Assembly: GCF_900188425.1 (NCBI RefSeq)
Contig: NZ_FZON01000032.1
Location: 1 to 54,935 of the forward strand
Direction: 5' to 3'
Origin: Antarctobacter heliothermus
GTDB taxonomy: Bacteria > Pseudomonadota > Alphaproteobacteria > Rhodobacterales > Rhodobacteraceae
Length of the DNA: 54,935 nucleotides
Below, one piece after another: positions 6,447 through 40,901 of this stretch. The number at the start of each line of letters is the position of its first letter. Position 1 is the stretch's first letter. Made by a program: the position numbers and the translations under genes. The notes beneath the pieces are model-generated. The model made no database searches. It had not been told where the DNA came from and worked only from the letters and a program-made list of their open reading frames with translations.

Positions 6447-9400
6447 AACTCCGCTGACTTGAGCTGGCGCTGCACCTCGCGGCGAAACTCCAGATCAAAG
6501 GCCAGCCCACGACCCTCGACCAGCAAGAGACGGGCATCAGCCTCCCCCGCACGCAATCGGTCCAGCAAATCGGTAACCTGTTCTGCCAGCGGCAGATCGG
6601 TTGGCACAAAGTCCGGCAACCCGTCGCGCAAAATCTGCAGCGCGGGCATCAACATCCCATCTGGCAGGCGCACCGCCACCCGGTCCAGCAAAGCAGGGTC
6701 TGATAGGAACAATGTCGCGCCAACCTGCGCCAGTGTCCCTTCCGCAAATGGCGCCAGCCGCGCCTTGACCTGCCCGTCGATCATGTCCCACAGCACCACG
6801 CCCGCAGGCGCCAGTCCCGCCGCAATGCGCAATCCGTCGGGCGCAAATGCCAGCGCCCGCACCTCGGCAGCGCCGGTCTCCAGCCGCCATAAAAAGCGAT
6901 CCACCGCGATGTCCCACAGCAGGACATGCGCGGCCCCGTCTTCGGCCACAGCAACAAAGCGCCCGTCCGGGCTGACCGCCATGGTGCGCGGCGCGCCATC
7001 CAGTTCCCCGAACCGACGCAGCAACCGGCCATCTTCGGCGCTCCATAGAGCAAGGATCCAAATATCGGGTGTGTCGAGGGGCTGAACAAGGCCAAGGATT
7101 TCGGCGTCTTCGCCCCGATAGGCCAGTGGCCCGATACGGGCAAAGGGCATCTCCAGCGCCAAACGCTCCGTGCCCGTGGAGGGATCTACCAGAATGATCT
7201 CGGGGGTTGGCGCATTGCGTCCAATCGCCAATTCCGTTCCGTTGGGGGATAGGGCGGCAAAGTCGCCGGGCCACGACCGACGCAACGCACCGGATCGCAC
7301 ATCCAGCAATGCCACCAGGCCCTCTTTGCTGACCCGGATCAGCGATGCGCCATTCTCACCAAAGGCCAGCGAGACCGCGTCCGAGGCGTCGCCCAACTCG
7401 CGCGACATCACCTCTGCAGCAAAGTCATGCAAGCGCAGCGCAACACCCGCCCCCTGCACGGCCAAGGCAGATCCGTCCGACCGCCACGCCATGGCAACCG
7501 GCCCCTTGGGTCCGTAGCCATCGCTGGCAAAGGTGACCTGCCCGTCCTGCCACGACCAGATCTGCAACTGCTGTTCGGCACTGCCGCCGGACCAACCGGA
7601 TCCGGCCAATGCAAGCCGCGTGCTGTCGGGGCTGAAGGCCAACGCGGATACAAACTCGCCATCGCGTTTCAAAACAGAATGTGCCACCCCATTGACCGGA
7701 TCTGCCAGGATCAGCCCCGGTGCCGCGCCACCGACAAGTCCCATCAGCCGGATGCCATCGGGTGTCAGCGCCACATCTGTAAACTCGTGCGCGTCCAATC
7801 CCCGCCGCAGCCCCCCGCCATCGAGGTCGAAAACCTGAACGCCACCGCCGGACTTCGATACGAAGACCGCAGCATCGCCCGCCGCACTCACCCCCAGCAA
7901 CCGCCCGCCCATCGCAGGGCCGATCCGTCCGGTCAGCGTGCCAGAGTCCAACTGCCAGTGCAGACCGAATGTGTCCGCTGCCCCGGCGATCAACCCGCTG
8001 CCGTCGCGGGTAAAGGCCAATCCCGAGATCGCGGCAGGCGCGTCCCCGGCCGGTTCCATTCCGCGCAGATACGCGCCAGTTTCCGCGACATGCACCGCAA
8101 CGGACCCTGTGATCGCGAAGGCCAGCGTACCTCCGTCAGAGCTGTACATCAGCGCGCTGACAGGTTCGTCGGTGGCCATGCGCCACTGCCGTTCGCCGGT
8201 CTCACCCCGCAGACCCGAAACCGCCGACACCTTGCCCGATTGCGCCACGGCGAGCCACGTTCCATCGGGTGAGAACGCCAGCGCGCTCGCCGGACCGTCC
8301 TCATTCAGCGCAACAGAGAACAGCGGACCCAGCGTGGGCAGCGTGAACACCTCGACCAACCGCGCGCCGACTGCCCCGTTTTGCCTGACAACAGCCAGGC
8401 GTCGGCCATCGGGACTTAACGCGATGCCCTCTGCGCCAGACCCGATGTAGCGCCGTGCCGCCAGTGTTCCCTCTGTCCCCCGCCAAAGGGACAAGGCCGC
8501 GTGACGGCCTTCTAACCGGGTGACGGTCGCGGCATAGTCCGTGGTTCCGGCGATCAACACCGCCTTGGGCCCCGTCAGATCACCTACCGGACCGGTGACC
8601 AGTTCCACGCCCGTGCCGGGCGGTAAATAGGGCAAGGCAATCCCATAGATCGCGGGTCCTGCATCGCCGATGCCAACCGGAAAAGCGGCCGTGGGGTCGT
8701 CTTTTGCCTCGACGCTGCCCGTGTCGCGCTGGTCTGGGTCAGGGTCCGCAGTTGGGTCGGGTGACGCGGCCATCGGGTTTGGTGTCGCCAAAGCGGCCTT
8801 TGGGTCACCCGCAGACGGCGGCAGACCGCAACGCTCTGCCGAGGCGCCGACACAGGTTTCGCCTTCCGACAAGGCCCACAGCAGCCTGGACTGAGCAATG
8901 AGGTGGGCCGACAACACACCGCGCCCGCCTTGACCCCGGTCTTCAAGGTGCATGGCAATCACGCGGCCTTGCATGTCCAGCACCGGCGCTCCGGCGCTGC
9001 CTGGCAACGTCGCGCACCCATGCGACAATCGCCCCCCCGGTTCGTCCGAACCGCGCAGGGCACATCCGTCGCGCACCACAAACAGCGACTCCCCAAACGG
9101 GTGCGTGAGGATCATCAATGGCGTCCCTGTCGACGGCGACGCGTCCTTGGACAGGGGCAGCGCCGTTCCCACAACCCCTTTCAGGCGCAACACCGCGTAA
9201 CCGGATTCGGCATCCGCCTCGACTGGTGTGACCTCGACCGGCAGGCGCGTCCCCTGATCCGTTTCGCGGGGCGCGTCGTACCCGGCGATAAAGTCCATGC
9301 GCGCAATGCTGACAGGTTTGCGGGTGGCCAATGCCGGATCGTCCAACACCCCCGGACCGCAGCGGTGCGCTGTCAGAATCAAGGTCGGCGCCACAAGGAA

Positions 9401-35282: not shown

Positions 35283-35397
35283 GGCCGGACCCGACACAAC
35301 TTGACAGGCCCCGTCGACAGGCGCAAAAGCAGGCCCGCAAAACATAACCCGCAACCGGGCGTTCCGTGGGCGCCAAACTGACGAGGAGTTGAGGCTG

Positions 35398-37380
35398 ATG
35401 GCCCAGATTTCCCTGACCTTTCCCGATGGCTCTAAACGTGACTTCGACAAGGGCGTGACCCCTGCCGACGTGGCGGCGAGCATCTCCAAATCGCTTGGCA
35501 AGAAAGCGATTTCCGCCACCGTGGGCGATGCCCACTGGGATCTGCAATGGCCCATCGAGGTTGACGCAGACATCGCGATCAACACCTTGGCCGATGACGC
35601 GCCGGCGCTGGAACTGATCCGGCACGACCTTGCGCACATCATGGCGCGCGCGGTGCAGGAACTTTGGCCCGGCGTCAAAGTGACCATCGGCCCGGTGATC
35701 GACAACGGCTGGTACTACGACTTTGACCGGGCTGAGCCGTTCACGCCCGAAGACCTCGGCGCGATCGAAAAGAAGATGAAAGAGATCATCAACCGCCGCG
35801 ATCCGGTCACCACCGAAATCTGGGACCGTGCCCGCGCGGTGGCCTTTTACGAGGCCAACAACGAACCCTACAAGGTCGAGCTGATCGAATCGATCCCCGG
35901 CGATGAGCCGCTGCGCATGTATTGGCACGGCCACTGGCAGGATCTGTGCCGTGGGCCGCACCTGCAACACACCGGCCAGGTGCCGGGGGATGCGTTCAAA
36001 CTGATGAGCGTGGCGGGCGCCTATTGGCGCGGCGACAGCAAACGCCAGATGCTGCAACGCATCTACGGCGTCGCCTTCAAGAACAAGGAAGACCTCAAAA
36101 AGCATCTGCACATGCTCGAAGAGGCGGCCAAACGCGACCACCGCAAGCTGGGCCGCGAAATGGACCTGTTCCACATGCAGGAAGAGGCCCCCGGTCAGGT
36201 GTTCTGGCATCCCAACGGCTGGACCATCTACACCCAGCTGCAGGACTACATGCGCCGCAAGCAGCGCGCTGGCGGGTATCAAGAGATCAACACCCCGCAG
36301 GTCGTGGACCGCAAACTGTGGGAGGCGTCAGGCCACTGGGACAAGTACCAGCACCACATGTTCCTCGTCGAAGTCGACGAGAGCCGGGATGGCGAAAACG
36401 ACGACGCCAGCGCCAAGAACCGCGACCAGACCCGGATCAACGCGCTAAAGCCGATGAACTGCCCCTGCCACGTTCAGGTGTTCAATCAGGGTCTGAAATC
36501 CTACCGCGACCTGCCCCTGCGGCTGGCCGAATTCGGCTCTTGCGCTCGGTTTGAACCCTCGGGCGCGCTGCATGGTATCATGCGCGTGCGTGGGTTCACG
36601 CAGGACGATGCGCATATCTTCTGCACCGAGGACCAGATCCAGGAGGAATGCGCCCGCTTCATCGACTTTCTGGCCGACATCTACCGCGAGCTTGGCTTCC
36701 CCGAGTTCGAGATCCGCTTTGCCACCCGCCCAGAAAAGCGCGTCGGCACCGAGGAAAGCTGGGACTATGTCGAAAACGCGTTGGAAAACGCGATCAAGGC
36801 CGTGGGCCGCGACTATGTGCTGGAACCGGGCGATGGCGCCTTTTATGGCCCCAAGCTGGACTTCTACCTGACCGACGCCATCGGGCGGATCTGGCAGTGC
36901 GGCACCTTTCAGGTCGATCCCAACCTGCCGGAACGGCTGGGCGCGTCCTACATCGCGCAAAGCGGCGACAAGACGCGGCCCTTTATGTTGCACCGCGCGA
37001 CGCTGGGATCTTTTGAACGCTTCATCGGCATCCTGATCGAGGAACACGCCGGCAAGCTGCCGTTCTGGCTGGCCCCGCGCCAGGTGGTTGTCGCCTCGAT
37101 CACGTCCGAGGCGGATGACTATGTGGCAGAGGTGGTGGCCCAATTGACCGCCGCCGGTGTCCGCGCAGAGGCCGACATCCGCAACGAAAAGATCAACTAC
37201 AAGGTGCGCGAACATTCGGTCGGCAAGGTGCCGGTGATCCTGGCCGTCGGACACCGCGAGGTTGAAGAGCGCACTGTGACCGTCCGCCGCCTTGGCGAAA
37301 AGCAGACGCAGGTGGCCGCGCTGGACGACATCGTGGCGCACTTGACCGCGGACGCAACTGCCCCGGACCTGCGCGACTGA
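35398..37380 (+). CDS. thrS: Threonyl-tRNA synthetase
   Basis: 660-aa class II synthetase charging tRNA-Thr. Domains in order: N-terminal TGS-like (1-60, '[19 protein letters not shown]'), editing domain (about 70-230, '[16 protein letters not shown]' with the HxxxH and later Cys-His site), catalytic core (about 260-545: motif 1 near 'QINTPQ'-type residues, motif 2 '[24 protein letters not shown]', motif 3 '[19 protein letters not shown]') and anticodon-binding domain (about 550-650). ATG 35398 has GAGGAG at 9 nt. An intrinsic terminator follows 25 bp downstream. Confidence 0.97.
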
Positions 37381-37405
37381 TCCCAAAGATCAAACGCGAT
37401 TTTGC

Positions 37406-37438
37406 GGGCCGCCCACATCGGGCGGCCCGATTTTCTTT
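37406..37438 (+). terminator. Intrinsic terminator of thrS
   Basis: GGGCCGCCC, loop ACATC, GGGCGGCCC: perfect 9-bp stem, then GATTTTCTTT. Placed 25 bp after the thrS stop. Confidence 0.9.
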
Positions 37439-37775
37439 GCAAAACCTGCGACGGAAACGACGGGCTGCTGCGTTACACGGCTGACAGTTTGCGTGATATA
37501 CCGTGTCCGGACTCCCGGACCGAACGGGATATCTGTAACATTCTGCCCCGCAGCATGATTTGAATCGCAACATTCGTTACACCATCACCTATTCCCCCGC
37601 TGAAATCGCACCCTACCCCGCTGGAAGGTTCACGCCCGCGACACGCCGCCTGACGGCCGCGTGATGCACAGGCCCGTGAATGGTTTGGGGCCGTGTCTCG
37701 GCGCACTGTGGTGTCACCGCAGGGCAAATCGCCCTCGGCCAAGTTTCAAACTCAGAAACCCGGAGGAAATTCTAC
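37439..37775 (+). promoter_or_regulatory. Gene-free region upstream of the bufferin operon
   Basis: 337 bp with no credible gene. GTTACA occurs at 37472-37477 and 37576-37581, and its inverse TGTAAC at 37534-37539, so half-sites flank the zone where a promoter should lie. In Caulobacter, bufferin operons answer to an ECF sigma factor; I cannot fit a clear consensus here. CGGAGGA (37761-37767) is the ribosome-binding site of bufA1. Confidence 0.4.
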
Positions 37776-38141
37776 ATGTCCACCACTCTCAAAACAGCCG
37801 CCCTCGTTGGCATCGTCGCCGCTGCCGTGTCCGCCTCGGGCGTACAGGCCATGGATCAGGAAAAATGCTACGGCGTCAGCCTTGCCGGTGAAAACGACTG
37901 CGCCGCAGGACCCGGCACCACCTGCGCCGGCACCTCGAATGTCGACTATCAGGGCAACGCCTGGACCCTGGTCGATGCAGGCACCTGCGCAGAGATCGAC
38001 CTGCCGGATGGCCGCATGGGCATGACAGCGGCCGCTCTCAAGGACAAGGGCTTTGAAGGCATCAAGCGCGACCTGCCCGAAGGCCTGGCCGAAGATGTTC
38101 AGGCCAAGTATTACGACCCGTCCATGATGTCCGACAGCTGA
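37776..38141 (+). CDS. bufA1: Bufferin precursor peptide (BufA1, DUF2282)
   Basis: 121 aa. Signal peptide residues 1-25 ('[19 protein letters not shown]'). The mature part carries four Cys in the DUF2282 pattern: Cys31 in '[14 protein letters not shown]', Cys42, Cys50 in 'GTTCAG' and Cys71 in 'AGTCAEID'. In bufferins, MNIO enzymes convert core Cys to thiol-bearing oxazole-type rings that bind copper in the periplasm. Residues about 78-121 ('[20 protein letters not shown]' and acid tail) extend beyond the compact DUF2282 core I know and are odd. CGGAGGA precedes ATG; other in-frame starts upstream are not signal-like. Followed by a hairpin, then bufB. Family and context sure; the modification in this strain is inferred. 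Confidence 0.93.
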
Positions 38142-38161
38142 TCGTCAAGGTCTGACAAGCC

Positions 38162-38183
38162 GGATGGGCATGCGTGCCCATCC
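38162..38183 (+). other. Hairpin between bufferin precursor and enzyme genes
   Basis: GGATGGGCA, loop TGCG, TGCCCATCC: perfect 9-bp stem 20 bp after the bufA1 stop and 26 bp before the bufB start, no T-tract. Suits differential expression (more precursor than enzyme) by mRNA protection or partial attenuation. Confidence 0.6.
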
Positions 38184-38209
38184 CACCACCGCCCCAAGCC
38201 GGAAGTCCC

Positions 38210-39130
38210 ATGTTCGACACACCCAGCCCCCTCCCCCCCTTGCCCGGCGTCGGCTACAAACCGCAGCATTATTCGGCCATCCTGAACGATCCCGCGCCGG
38301 TGGGCTGGCTAGAGGTCCACGCCGAGAACTACATGGGCGATGGCGGCAGGCCGCTGGCACAACTGCGGGCTCTGGCCGAGCGTTTTCCGATCTCTGTTCA
38401 CGGTGTCGGACTGTCCATCGGCGGCCCTGAACGGTTGGACCCTGATCATCTGGCGCGGCTGACGCATCTTGTCGGCTGGCTGAACCCGGCCAGCTTTTCC
38501 GAACACCTCGCCTGGTCGACCCATGACAGCCATTTCCTGAACGACCTGCTGCCGCTGCCCTATACGCTCACCACGCTGGAGCGCATCTGCGATCACATTG
38601 ATGAGGTCCAGGAGGCGCTTGGGCGACCCATGCTGCTGGAAAACCCGTCCAGCTATCTGGCCTTTGCCGAAAGCACGATGTCAGAGACCGATTTCCTGCG
38701 CGAGGTGACCCGCCGCACTGGCTGTGGCCTGTTGCTGGATGTCAACAATGTCTTCGTCTCCTCGGTGAACCTTGGGTACAGCCCGCAAGACTATATCACC
38801 GCCTTCCCGATGGACGCGGTAGGAGAGATCCATCTGGCCGGGCACGATGAGGATGAGGACGATTTCGGCGCGCCCTTGCTGATCGACAGCCACGGGCGCG
38901 AAGTGGCCGAGCCGGTCTGGGCGCTGCTGGATCAGGTGTTGAAGCAGTCCGGACCGCGTCCGTTGCTGATCGAATGGGACAATGACGTGCCAGACTGGCC
39001 GGTGTTGGCCGCAGAGGCGCAGCGGGCGCAAGCGGCGCTGTCGCAGGGGGCGCTGCCCCCGTCTCCCTCCGGTCGACTCCCCCGGGATATTTTTGGCCAG
39101 AAGAAACCCGGAGGCGGCGCGCATGCCTGA
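38210..39130 (+). CDS. bufB: Multinuclear non-heme iron oxidase (MNIO, DUF692), BufB
   Basis: 306-aa TIM-barrel iron oxidase that modifies Cys of the BufA precursor. Ligand-type residues of the family are visible: Glu36/His38 zone '[11 protein letters not shown]', His64 '[12 protein letters not shown]', His99 'FSEHLAW', Glu144 '[10 protein letters not shown]', Asp178/Asn179 '[12 protein letters not shown]', His208/His212 '[10 protein letters not shown]' and Glu255/Asp257 'LIEWDND'. The last 25 residues ('[20 protein letters not shown]') are encoded by a repeat found twice more in the window, so they are a late addition. The start is placed at 38210 by family N-terminus. The 3' end overlaps bufC by 8 bp. 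Confidence 0.94.
39046..39106 (-). repeat. REP-like repeat copy A, inside the bufB 3' end
   Basis: Minus strand: CTTCTGGCCAAAAATATCCC, GGGGGAGTCGAC, then a GACGGGGGCAGCGCCCCC end with its own small hairpin. The same order of words occurs at 48015-48072 and 53646-53695. Here it supplies the bufB tail codons and ends 17 bp before the bufC start. Confidence 0.75.
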
Positions 39131-39875
39131 GGCCAGCACCACTGAGGCCGCGTTTCGTGTGGGATTGCTGCGTGCCGATGGAGCCATCCCCGAAGGGGTG
39201 ACCGATGGCGCCGGCCGTCCCGCCGGGCGACGCTATGATGTCTATCGCAACAACGTGGCGGTGGCGCTGCGCGAGGCGTTGGAGACCGGCTTTCCTGCGG
39301 TCGCCAAGCTGATCGGGCCGGAGAATTTCGCGCGGGCGGCGGGTCTGTATCTGCGCCGCGATCCGCCTGAAACGCCCTTGATGATGCAGTACGGCGCGAG
39401 CTTTGCGGCCTTTCTGGAGCAGATCGACGCCCTGCGTGGCATCGGCTATCTGGGCGATGTGGCGCGGTTGGAACTGGCCATGCGGCGCAGCTATCACGCT
39501 GCAGATGCAGTGCCTTTTGACGCCGGGCGGTTGGCGGCACTTGAGGACAGCACGCTGAGGGCCGCGCGTCTGATCCTTGCGCCCTCCGTGCAGGTCGTGC
39601 GTTCGCCTTGGCCGGTTCTGTCTGTCTATCGCTATACCATGCTGCCGGATCAGCCCAAGCCGCAGGCGCGCGCCGAGGATGTGCTGATCACCCGACCGGA
39701 GTTTGATCCCGCGCCGCATCTGTTGCCGCAAGGTGGCGCGGCATTCATCGACGCGCTCAGGCGCGGGCTGACCTTTGGGGCAGCGCTCACGGCTGCCGGT
39801 GCCGATTTCGACCTGCCCGCGACCCTGACGCTGCTGTTGCAGCAGGGCGCGATTTCCGACCTCCAGACCGCCTGA
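39123..39875 (+). CDS. bufC: BufC, DUF2063 partner of the MNIO enzyme
   Basis: 250 aa. N-terminal DUF2063 helical region: '[20 protein letters not shown]' then '[20 protein letters not shown]' and '[23 protein letters not shown]', the pattern annotated as putative DNA-binding but shown in MNIO systems to bind precursor and enzyme. Overlaps bufB by 8 bp, so the two are made together. C-terminal half is less conserved. Confidence 0.9.
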
Positions 39876-39886
39876 GGATGCTTGCC

Positions 39887-40453
39887 ATGGACCGCCTTCT
39901 TTCCCTGCACCACGCGATCTTTGCCCCTGTCGAGCGGCTGGGGGGGTCATTGATCCCGCTGCTGGCTCGGCTCGTCTTTGCCGCGACCTTGTTGCGGTAC
40001 TATTGGAACTCGGCGGGCACCAAGGTCTGGGACCGCAAGGGTGAGGAAGGCATCTTTGACTTCTTCACGCTGGAACCGGGGACCTATGCGCAGATGTTCC
40101 CCAAGGCCTTTGAGGCGGCGGGGTATAATCCGGCCAAGATGGGTGTCCTGTATGACATCGTCGCCTATGCCGGAACCTATGCGGAATGGGTGCTGCCGCT
40201 GCTGATCGTGATCGGACTGTTCACCCGGTTGGCAGCCTTGGGCATGATCGGCTTTGTCGTGGTGCAGACCTTTGTCGATGTGACTGGACATGGCGGCGAA
40301 CCGGGTATGCTGTTCGACACGCGGTATGAGCTGATCGACGAGCGGACGCTTTGGATCTTCGGGTTTGTGGTGTTGGTGATCAAGGGTGCTGGTGTGCTGT
40401 CCATCGACCGGCTGCTGGGCCTGAACATAGCGCCGCGCGGCGTCAAGGTCTGA
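39887..40453 (+). CDS. bufD: BufD, DoxX-family membrane protein
   Basis: 188 aa, about four helices ('LIPLLARLVFAATLLRYYW', 'WVLPLLIVIGLFTRLAALGM', 'IGFVVVQTFVDVTGHGG', 'LWIFGFVVLVIKGAGVLSI'). DoxX proteins accompany bufferin genes and may pass electrons to the periplasm or help quinone chemistry. The ATG at 39887 is preferred to 39878, since GAGG abuts the latter. Last gene of the operon. Confidence 0.9.
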   Translation: MDRLLSLHHAIFAPVERLGGSLIPLLARLVFAATLLRYYWNSAGTKVWDRKGEEGIFDFFTLEPGTYAQMFPKAFEAAGYNPAKMGVLYDIVAYAGTYAEWVLPLLIVIGLFTRLAALGMIGFVVVQTFVDVTGHGGEPGMLFDTRYELIDERTLWIFGFVVLVIKGAGVLSIDRLLGLNIAPRGVKV

Positions 40454-40532
40454 GCACTCTGGTGGGACGGCGGGCGGGGCGATGTTGCCGAAGGCAACCA
40501 GCGGCGCCCCCGTCCCTGCCTGTGGTAACATC

Positions 40533-40901
40533 TCAGAAATGCGCCTTGGGTTCGTCTGGTTTGCCCGCGGCGAGCGCCAGCACCCCGGCCAGACCGGCAA
40601 AGGCGATGGGGAACATGGTAAACACGTTGAACCCGAAGGCGTGGAACATCGCCGCCGCCGAGGCCAGCAGCAGCAGGCCACCCCACAACGCACGCGCCTT
40701 GGCCATGGCTCCGCCCGCGATGGCCAAAAGAGGCGCCAGGATGGACACCGTGCGCACCGTCGCGGGATCATCGAACATGCCGAACATTTCTTCGACTTCG
40801 CCGACGTTCTTGACCAGCTCGGTATAGCCGAAGCCGAAAAAACCCACGATCATGCCGATCACCCCGGCGATGATCCCCAGCGTCAAGGCTGCGTTTCTCA
40901 T
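40533..40901 (-). CDS. Small hydrophobic membrane protein, unknown
   Basis: 122 aa with three or four helices ('LTLGIIAGVIGMIVGFFGFG', 'SILAPLLAIAGGAMA', 'WGGLLLLASAAAMFHAFG', 'MFPIAFAGLAGVLALAAG'). The start at 40901 overlaps the ArsC-like stop by 4 bp and has AGGAGA at 8 nt. Family not recognised with certainty. It faces the bufferin operon 79 bp away; no clear link. Confidence 0.75.
   Translation of the reverse strand: MRNAALTLGIIAGVIGMIVGFFGFGYTELVKNVGEVEEMFGMFDDPATVRTVSILAPLLAIAGGAMAKARALWGGLLLLASAAAMFHAFGFNVFTMFPIAFAGLAGVLALAAGKPDEPKAHF

Follow-up and report, generated by a model that had tools for sequence, protein, structure and literature searches.

What switches on a bufferin operon in a bacterium that has no sigma/anti-sigma pair next to it? 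The question is raised by four genes in a 54,935-nt stretch of the genome of the marine roseobacter Antarctobacter heliothermus (the window), in which a preliminary description had recognized a bufferin operon while leaving its control open; the upstream sequence now allows a specific prediction on that point, namely control by CenR. Bufferins are reported to constitute the largest families of MNIO-made peptides, and the control of Buf1 clusters described in the relevant sections of the same paper (PMC12452194) consists of a sigma factor (sigma-F) and NrsF, with no other mentioned in those sections, yet most of the sampled genomes of the family Rhodobacteraceae lack an NrsF match. The new part of the present analysis concerns the control of bufA, where what looks like a tandem CenR-like operator takes the place of the sigma-factor switch of Caulobacter.

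The bufferin operon and its products

The genes bufA1 (bufA, 37776..38141), bufB (38210..39130), bufC (39123..39875), and bufD (39878..40453) are all present on the + strand in the order first reported, and the profile search that the preliminary description called for places each product above its curated Pfam cut-off. BufA, the 121-aa bufferin precursor, matches PF10048 (DUF2282) with 81.6 bits against a cut-off of 22.4 (E 3.9e-23) and is the only DUF2282 match genome-wide; BufB, an MNIO (DUF692) peptide-modifying iron enzyme of 306 aa counted from its ATG, matches PF05114 (MbnB_TglH_ChrH) with 355 bits (cut-off 25); the DUF2063 partner protein BufC (250 aa) matches PF09836 with 74.9 bits (cut-off 27.2), and the DoxX-family membrane protein BufD (191 aa) matches PF07681 with 32.0 bits (cut-off 23.6). 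Among the NCBIfam models, BufB exceeds the cut-off of the equivalog NF050167 “MNIO family bufferin maturase” (379 bits vs 310), BufC and BufD hit the HvfC and HvfX models, respectively, below cut-off, and BufA has no match. The Pfam matches and the equivalog together bear out the assignment to a bufferin operon, and the finer details first read from the sequence are equally sound: the precursor cysteines are at positions 31, 42, 50, and 71, bufB (end 39130) and bufC (start 39123) overlap by 8 bp, and the His/Asp/Glu set of BufB is borne out by an alignment in which all nine Fe-ligand positions named for TglH (PMC10880893) are kept, as H64, H99, E144, D177, N180, H208, D226, H228, and E255. An in-frame GTG 36 bp upstream of the ATG is also a possible start of bufB.

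Judged from these matches, the four genes are clearly a Buf1 bufferin operon of the ordinary type. The same series of four families (DUF2282, DUF692, DUF2063, DoxX) makes up CC3254-CC3257 (bufA1-bufB-bufC-bufD) of Caulobacter crescentus, and the core of precursor, MNIO, DUF2063, and DoxX with four conserved cysteines is the one given for Buf1 clusters in general in the pertinent part of PMC12452194. As DUF2282 is present in 211 of 295 sampled Rhodobacteraceae genomes, the operon as such is a common Buf1 cluster. The GIG operons of Cupriavidus and Legionella, which belong to other bacterial classes, represent a related cluster with a response to gold/copper reported in the passages concerned (PMC5413113, PMC8224329).

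By analogy with the published relatives, the product of bufA would be a thiooxazole peptide binding periplasmic copper: BufB and BufC would oxidize the two central cysteines to thiooxazoles prior to export, which is likely to proceed via Sec (the N-terminal 25 residues, ending in VQA, resemble a Sec signal peptide by eye), the outer two cysteines would form a disulfide, and the modified BufA would then hold excess copper in the periplasm. It is unlikely that the main ligand or role of the peptide here is instead another metal, sulfur, or envelope redox stress: bufferins and captophorins are reported, in the sections drawn upon, to bind or detoxify copper (PMC12452194, PMC13097082), and Caulobacter reportedly becomes copper-sensitive upon sigF loss, even though the homologous operon of that bacterium is reported to answer not only copper but also cadmium and chromate (PMC3511200, PMC8224329) and envelope-stress control of the kind proposed below would not be copper-specific.

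Upstream of the operon lies thrS (35389-37380, Pfam), followed on the + strand by an intrinsic-terminator-like stem (37405..37429; a 10-pair G+C stem with a T-rich tail) by which thrS would be set apart from the buf operon. With three terminator-like sites in the scanned region vs a mean of 2.1 in shuffles, this stem is supportive only. An Rfam scan of the window gave no match.

The region upstream of bufA

In Caulobacter, CC3254-3257 is under sigma-F control as described in the relevant portion of PMC3511200, and C. crescentus has sigF-nrsF as well as a GTAACC-N16-CGAA promoter; A. heliothermus differs in lacking an NrsF match and such a promoter and in having the tandem CenR-like operator. 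The reported lack of an adjacent sigma/anti-sigma pair stands and can be widened for NrsF: a search with PF06532 gave 0 matches across all 5.17 Mb of the genome but detected NrsF in the Caulobacter control. Likewise, GTAAC-N15-19-CGW, which resembles the Caulobacter promoter, does not occur upstream of bufA on the + strand. Both results argue against the operon being driven by sigma-F with an unrecognized anti-sigma factor, which we consider highly improbable despite a gene order identical to that of the sigma-F-controlled Caulobacter operon.

What is found upstream of bufA is a pair of contiguous 15-bp units at 37651-37680. The first (37651..37665, +; TGACGGCCGCGTGAT) has the form TSACG-N4-CGTGA, i.e., TSA-N8-TGA, scores 11.6 bits, and is largely conserved across six genomes of the genus, whereas the second (37666..37680, +; GCACAGGCCCGTGAA), which abuts it directly, starts with G where T is expected and at 6.0 bits is weak alone. 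As a tandem, the two score 17.6 vs a 99% shuffle limit of 9.8. All these scores were obtained with a matrix based on the 31 CenR sites published for Rhodobacter sphaeroides, and the same operator is seen in the bufA promoter of Ruegeria pomeroyi (L263; TGACGGGAATGTGAG ACACGGGGTCGTGAA). The units match the published sites of the R. sphaeroides CenKR regulon, which are 15-bp TGA-N8-TGA elements, many of them TSACG-N4-YGTGA, that precede the −35 region where a gene is activated, as exemplified by TGACGCGGGCGTGAA at an L,D-transpeptidase gene (PMC9275681). Many of the CenR targets are envelope or periplasmic proteins; the published table lists one site per gene, in contrast to the two contiguous units at bufA, and contains no gene named bufferin, DUF2282, or DUF692 (PMC9275681).

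A scan of 37300-40700 revealed no sigma-70 consensus promoter. The putative place of the −10 element is 37704..37709 (+; CACTGT), a poor match situated 20 bp after the TGG behind unit 2, at which columns C-T-A...T show raised conservation in an 81-promoter matrix; the two units would be placed just upstream of a weak promoter of the sigma-70 type.

Promoters across the Rhodobacteraceae

The 81-promoter matrix, the first to be made, is circular, its training set and the promoters scored being the same, so that the tandem claim rests on the matrix derived exclusively from the 31 R. sphaeroides sites, which is independent of the bufA promoters. The promoter set was not random, being composed of the 30 best family DUF2282 loci, the loci from a search of relatives (with repeats of one genome omitted), and 60 places from a printed list, some entries of which were skipped by hand, NrsF genomes among them. 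In two of the 114 mapped loci (L060, L066), bufA was not parsed.

NrsF matches occur in 45 of the 295 sampled genomes, 40 of them above cut-off, and it is with these that the sigma-F promoter is associated: 16 of 19 NrsF genomes vs 5 of 93 others have GTAAC-N16/17-CGW no more than 300 bp from bufA, the 93 including two loci from outside the family (L062, L065) that were dropped before the scan with the CenR matrix. The tandem pair shows the opposite distribution and is widely conserved: of the 91 promoters counted as NrsF-less, 81 have it above the 99% shuffle level, vs 2 of 19 from NrsF genomes. It has to be noted that the count of 91 includes a genome whose NrsF match stays below threshold (G228, locus L083) and five congeners (G295-G299, all with the tandem) that, like L062 and L065, were outside the NrsF search; with the congeners left out, the tandem is found in 76 of 86. 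Two of the ten NrsF-less promoters without it fall just short of the limit of 9.8 (L020, 9.6; L113, 9.7). The CenR motif is degenerate, and single units fail to separate the two sets, being above the 99% shuffle level in 35 of 91 NrsF-less and 10 of 19 NrsF promoters. When the parsed, named loci were compared by promoter pattern only, irrespective of NrsF status, 69 of 76 had the tandem (four of these with a sigma-F-type pattern as well) and six of the other seven had a sigma-F promoter, which further argues against a role of sigma-F in A. heliothermus. A single CenR unit precedes the −35 box by 3-5 bp in 21 of 24 sigma-F-type promoters.

On the scale of genomes, the tandem pattern with up to two mismatches occurs in 109 of the 295 family members, the reversed control giving one match. 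Use of the element throughout the class was considered and rejected, as three of 337 genomes contain it with up to one mismatch, two of these being Rhodobacteraceae, and none of the 28 bufA loci parsed from the 30 best hits across the class has it.

CenR as the candidate regulator

The CenR reading gains from tandem sites elsewhere. Eighteen places matching the pattern but with no obvious assignment to one of the listed bufA genes were fetched, of which 6 proved to have bufA and 12 did not. Three of the 12 precede msrA, one a CenR-like regulator gene, and one an L,D-transpeptidase gene, and as the published table (PMC9275681) includes an msrA, an L,D-transpeptidase, and cenR itself among its targets, five of the 12 precede gene types of the CenR regulon. 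A further site precedes a gene for a secreted protein with no Pfam match, YHS-like by eye only, and the remaining six (L146, L147, L149, L150, L157, and L160) gave no recognized target, the surrounding genes being inspected for the first five. In A. heliothermus, the CenR-matrix scan found no tandem at its own msrA.

Dimer sites of CRP/FNR-type regulators also have a 5-4-5 layout, and the half-site TSACG/CGTGA is short, so the tandem could be the operator of a different activator, either of this type or another member of the OmpR family (e.g., a metal-sensing one), with the likeness to CenR sites reflecting a shared half-site. The regulator query finds 31 matches in the genome (E up to 0.001), and the tandem without mismatch occurs just once in its 5.17 Mb, as would be expected for a dedicated, operon-specific regulator, CenR having many targets. 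This alternative deserves to be taken seriously but remains the less probable one: the tandem is detected by a matrix built from CenR ChIP-derived sites only, five of the 12 off-bufA sites lie before gene types of the CenR regulon, a CenR-like regulator included, and a scan of six neighboring genes on the flanks of the operon revealed no OmpR- or CRP/FNR-type regulator, one of the six coding for a cold-shock protein.

The best explanation, which we regard as probable, is therefore a Buf1 operon that makes a copper-holding peptide and is activated by CenR via the tandem units and not by sigma-F/NrsF. CenR, the OmpR-type response regulator of the CenK-CenR envelope-stress system, is predicted from the sequence to bind both contiguous units and to activate the buf operon, and we infer a copper response at bufA. 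Transcription in A. heliothermus and most sampled family members would then proceed without sigma-F/NrsF, the NrsF-keeping minority having a composite promoter in which one CenR unit would act beside the sigma-F −35 box. A broader proposal, which we favor with somewhat more reserve, makes the roseobacter-family bufferin operon a direct CenK-CenR target: lineages having lost sigma-F/NrsF would have retained one CenR box from their ancestor and added another, the tandem operator replacing the sigma-F promoter, and metal buffering, methionine-sulfoxide repair, and cell-wall remodeling would come under one essential envelope regulator. We propose that the CenKR envelope-stress regulon includes the bufferins of the Rhodobacteraceae. 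Should CenR prove to be the switch, many marine bacteria would have their copper buffering tied to envelope stress and not to a metal-linked sigma factor, CenKR would acquire a possible connection with copper damage in the periplasm, and the promoters would offer a clear case of rewiring, with one box kept and the sigma factor exchanged.

The regulator encoded behind the off-bufA site shares D11-13, D51, and D56 with the published description of CenR, and the OmpR-type regulator of A. heliothermus itself (G000:C116:11582-12253) is 87% identical to it, reading VDDEED where the former reads VDDDDD. Compared with NCBIfam, the CenR-like regulator reaches no model at cut-off among the 25 best, the best scores being those of MtrA, PhoB, and YycF. 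At the cenR-like gene of A. heliothermus, the self-site, ACACGAGGACGTGAG, which lies 96 bp before the matched stretch, is outscored by another unit in the scan with the CenR matrix. In 23 of 30 relatives, A. heliothermus included, the 200 bp upstream of the CenR-like regulator contain ACACG-N4-CGTGA, which is also how the cenR self-site reads in the published work (PMC9275681).

The bufferin operon and its kind

The four genes bufA (37776-38141), bufB (38210-39130), bufC (39123-39875) and bufD (39878-40453) lie on the forward strand, and gene calls together with Pfam and NCBIfam searches bore out the coordinates, precursor cysteines, gene overlap and gene order put forward in the preliminary description. 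In Pfam, all four products score above the cut-off, BufA with DUF2282, BufB with MbnB_TglH_ChrH, BufC with DUF2063 and BufD with DoxX; in NCBIfam, BufB exceeds the cut-off of the bufferin maturase equivalog, BufC and BufD match HvfC and HvfX only below cut-off, and BufA has no match. Alignment of BufB to chain 8hci shows all nine TglH iron-ligand positions listed in PMC10880893 to be kept, and its closest named relatives are from Mameliella (L221, with 87% identity, and L267 from Mameliella sediminis).

DUF2282 has a single match in the 5.17-Mb genome and is present in 211 of the 295 family genomes, a sample of one genome per genus. Because the gene set is identical to the Buf1 core described in PMC12452194 and DUF2282 is common in the family, the operon is regarded as a further member of the known Buf1 kind, in whose precursors the central two cysteines are modified and the first and last form a disulphide (PMC12452194). 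The C-terminal tail of BufA (window about 37990-38141; 40 residues, not shown) is longer than in the five congeners; tails resembling it by eye are scattered over other genera (L014, L026, L039, L069, L087, L100, L102).

Sigma-F promoters and the tandem element upstream of bufA

The Caulobacter bufferin operon is driven by sigma-F, which is restrained by NrsF, from the promoter GTAACC-N16-CGAA (PMC3511200); it is among the few genes copper-induced in every condition tried, and mutation of sigF makes the bacterium sensitive to copper (PMC8224329). According to PMC12452194, genes for sigma factors and NrsF occur in Buf1 clusters but not in Buf2 clusters. In contrast to Caulobacter, which has NrsF and a sigma-F promoter at the operon, the genome studied here has no NrsF match anywhere in its 5.17 Mb, by a search that was positive in the Caulobacter control, and its bufA has no such promoter: across the window GTAAC-N15-19-CGW has just two matches, one on the + strand at 9197 and one on the minus strand at 37476, neither of which suits bufA. 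NrsF matches were found in 45 of the 295 family genomes, in 40 of them above cut-off. The bufA start could be parsed at 112 loci; the 300 bp upstream of it contain a sigma-F promoter at 16 of the 19 loci from NrsF genomes versus 5 of the 93 others. The 93 include seven loci outside the NrsF search (five congeners and two non-family), and all seven belong to those without a sigma-F promoter.

The promoters of the set without NrsF share a strongly conserved element upstream of bufA. In the window it consists of two directly abutting CenR-like units, TGACGGCCGCGTGAT and GCACAGGCCCGTGAA (37651-37680, + strand, 96-125 bp before the bufA ATG), both fitting TSACG-N4-CGTGA, the second only loosely; upstream of it, behind thrS, lies a terminator-like stem (37405-37429). 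The tandem pattern has one match without mismatch in the window's genome, the next ones appearing only at 3 mismatches, where it totals 22 places and its reversed control 16. Allowing up to 2 mismatches, 109 of the 295 family genomes have it (one match for the reversed control). In a class-wide draw of 337 genomes, with no more than 1 mismatch allowed, it is found in 3, two of which belong to this family. More conserved blocks occur in the thrS-bufA spacer across six genomes of the genus, at 37471-37496 (CGTTACA..TGAC-N6-CGTGA), at 37534-37546 (TGTAACATTCTGC, one place without mismatch in the window's genome) and, conserved in part, at 37575-37581 (CGTTACA); they may mark another control site or the start of a small RNA.

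A matrix made from 31 published CenR sites only was scored as two contiguous units between -180 and -20, with the 99% level of dinucleotide shuffles as the limit. By this measure, the tandem is present in 81 of the 91 promoters counted as NrsF-less (76 of 86 without the five congeners, which were outside the NrsF search) versus 2 of the 19 NrsF promoters (L013, L074); ten NrsF-less promoters are without it (L010, L020, L025, L046, L051, L053, L061, L097, L099, L113), two of which miss by a hair. Single CenR units are far less telling, exceeding the 99% level in 35/91 and 10/19 promoters, respectively. Among the named loci, bufA was parsed in 76 of 80 and the tandem found in 69 of the 76, a count not independent of the genome-set one, as the two sets overlap in part. 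Of the seven named loci without a tandem, six show a sigma-F promoter instead and L276 has neither, and a sigma-F-type pattern stands besides the tandem in four of the 69 (L230, L242, L258, L297). L159, from genome G007, carries two consecutive bufA copies, neither with a tandem operator by the matrix, and L278 (JAHVJD010000002.1), titled Nocardioides marinus, has a roseobacter-like bufferin locus with a tandem operator; the record looks mislabelled.

A slightly looser sigma-F pattern yielded 24 promoters, from 18 of the 19 NrsF genomes and 6 named loci. In 21 of these (L002, L004-L009, L011, L013, L018, L021, L023, L024, L057, L071, L238, L254, L260, L273, L279, L282), one CenR unit ends 3-5 bp before the GTAA of the -35 box, above the 99% level of the shuffled null, which makes these composite promoters. 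The 28 bufA loci parsed from the best 30 of a class-wide search, none from this family, include no tandem; a sigma-F-type match is found in nine, three of which (L309, L312, L331) have a CenR-like unit 3-4 bp upstream. The simplest reading, drawn from the promoters rather than from a tree, is that the ancestral arrangement may have been a CenR box beside a sigma-F promoter, and that lineages losing NrsF would have exchanged the sigma-F portion for a further box.

Tandem sites away from bufA and a proposed link to CenR

CenR is suggested as the regulator by the genes behind pattern matches distant from bufA, whose families were assigned by Pfam. Twelve tandem sites without bufA were fetched, three of which (L142, L145, L153) lie about 35-115 bp, varying with the start codon chosen, upstream of a secreted-looking msrA; at L155 the gene 50-90 bp downstream of the site encodes an OmpR-type response regulator, and at L141 the site lies upstream of an L,D-transpeptidase gene. 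The remaining seven comprise six without a recognised target, one being a secreted protein with no Pfam match, and L160, where neither bufA nor thrS is found. The R. sphaeroides CenR table of PMC9275681 includes cenR itself, an msrA and an L,D-transpeptidase, and the sites of that paper include ACACGAGCGCGTGAG and TGACGCGGGCGTGAA. The msrA of this table, which is without a signal peptide, is at most a possible orthologue of the secreted-looking ones found here.

The L155 regulator has aspartates at 11-13, 51 and 56, matching the description of CenR in the available text of PMC9275681, and is 87% identical to its counterpart in the window's genome; no NCBIfam model above cut-off names the regulator among the 25 best matches. 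ACACG-N4-CGTGA occurs within 200 bp upstream of the best-matching regulator gene in 23 of 30 relatives' loci, two of the 30 (L172 and L188) being partial, and reads ACACGAGGACGTGAG in the window's genome. The CenR table in the available text of PMC9275681 names no bufferin gene and a term search of that text returned no 'copper', which in the available text of the CenKR paper PMC10470753 appears only as grid material; among the papers listed by a literature search, none links CenR or CenKR with DUF692, DUF2282 or bufferin.

In the model proposed here, CenK would detect an envelope disturbance and phosphorylate CenR, which, by predicted binding to the two units of the tandem immediately 5' of a weak sigma-70-type promoter, would recruit RNA polymerase; BufB and BufC would then modify BufA, which after export would hold copper in the periplasm. 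CenR-activated genes have the site upstream of the -35 element (PMC9275681). The candidate for the weak promoter is a set of conserved C-T-A...T columns in the bufA promoter alignment, at which position the window has merely CACTGT (37704-37709). The coupling to msrA would parallel Caulobacter, where sigma-F unites bufferins and an MsrPQ-like system (PMC8224329).

Two of the tandem sites without a recognised target have neighbours worth recording. The site of L144 (2276-2306) is followed by a small protein that looks secreted, has no Pfam match and is YHS-domain-like by eye. At L150 (2214-2244), a cytochrome b561 gene lies some 580 bp beyond the site, and next to it comes one for a molybdopterin oxidoreductase; the two recall MsrQ-MsrP, with the site too distant for them to count as a target.
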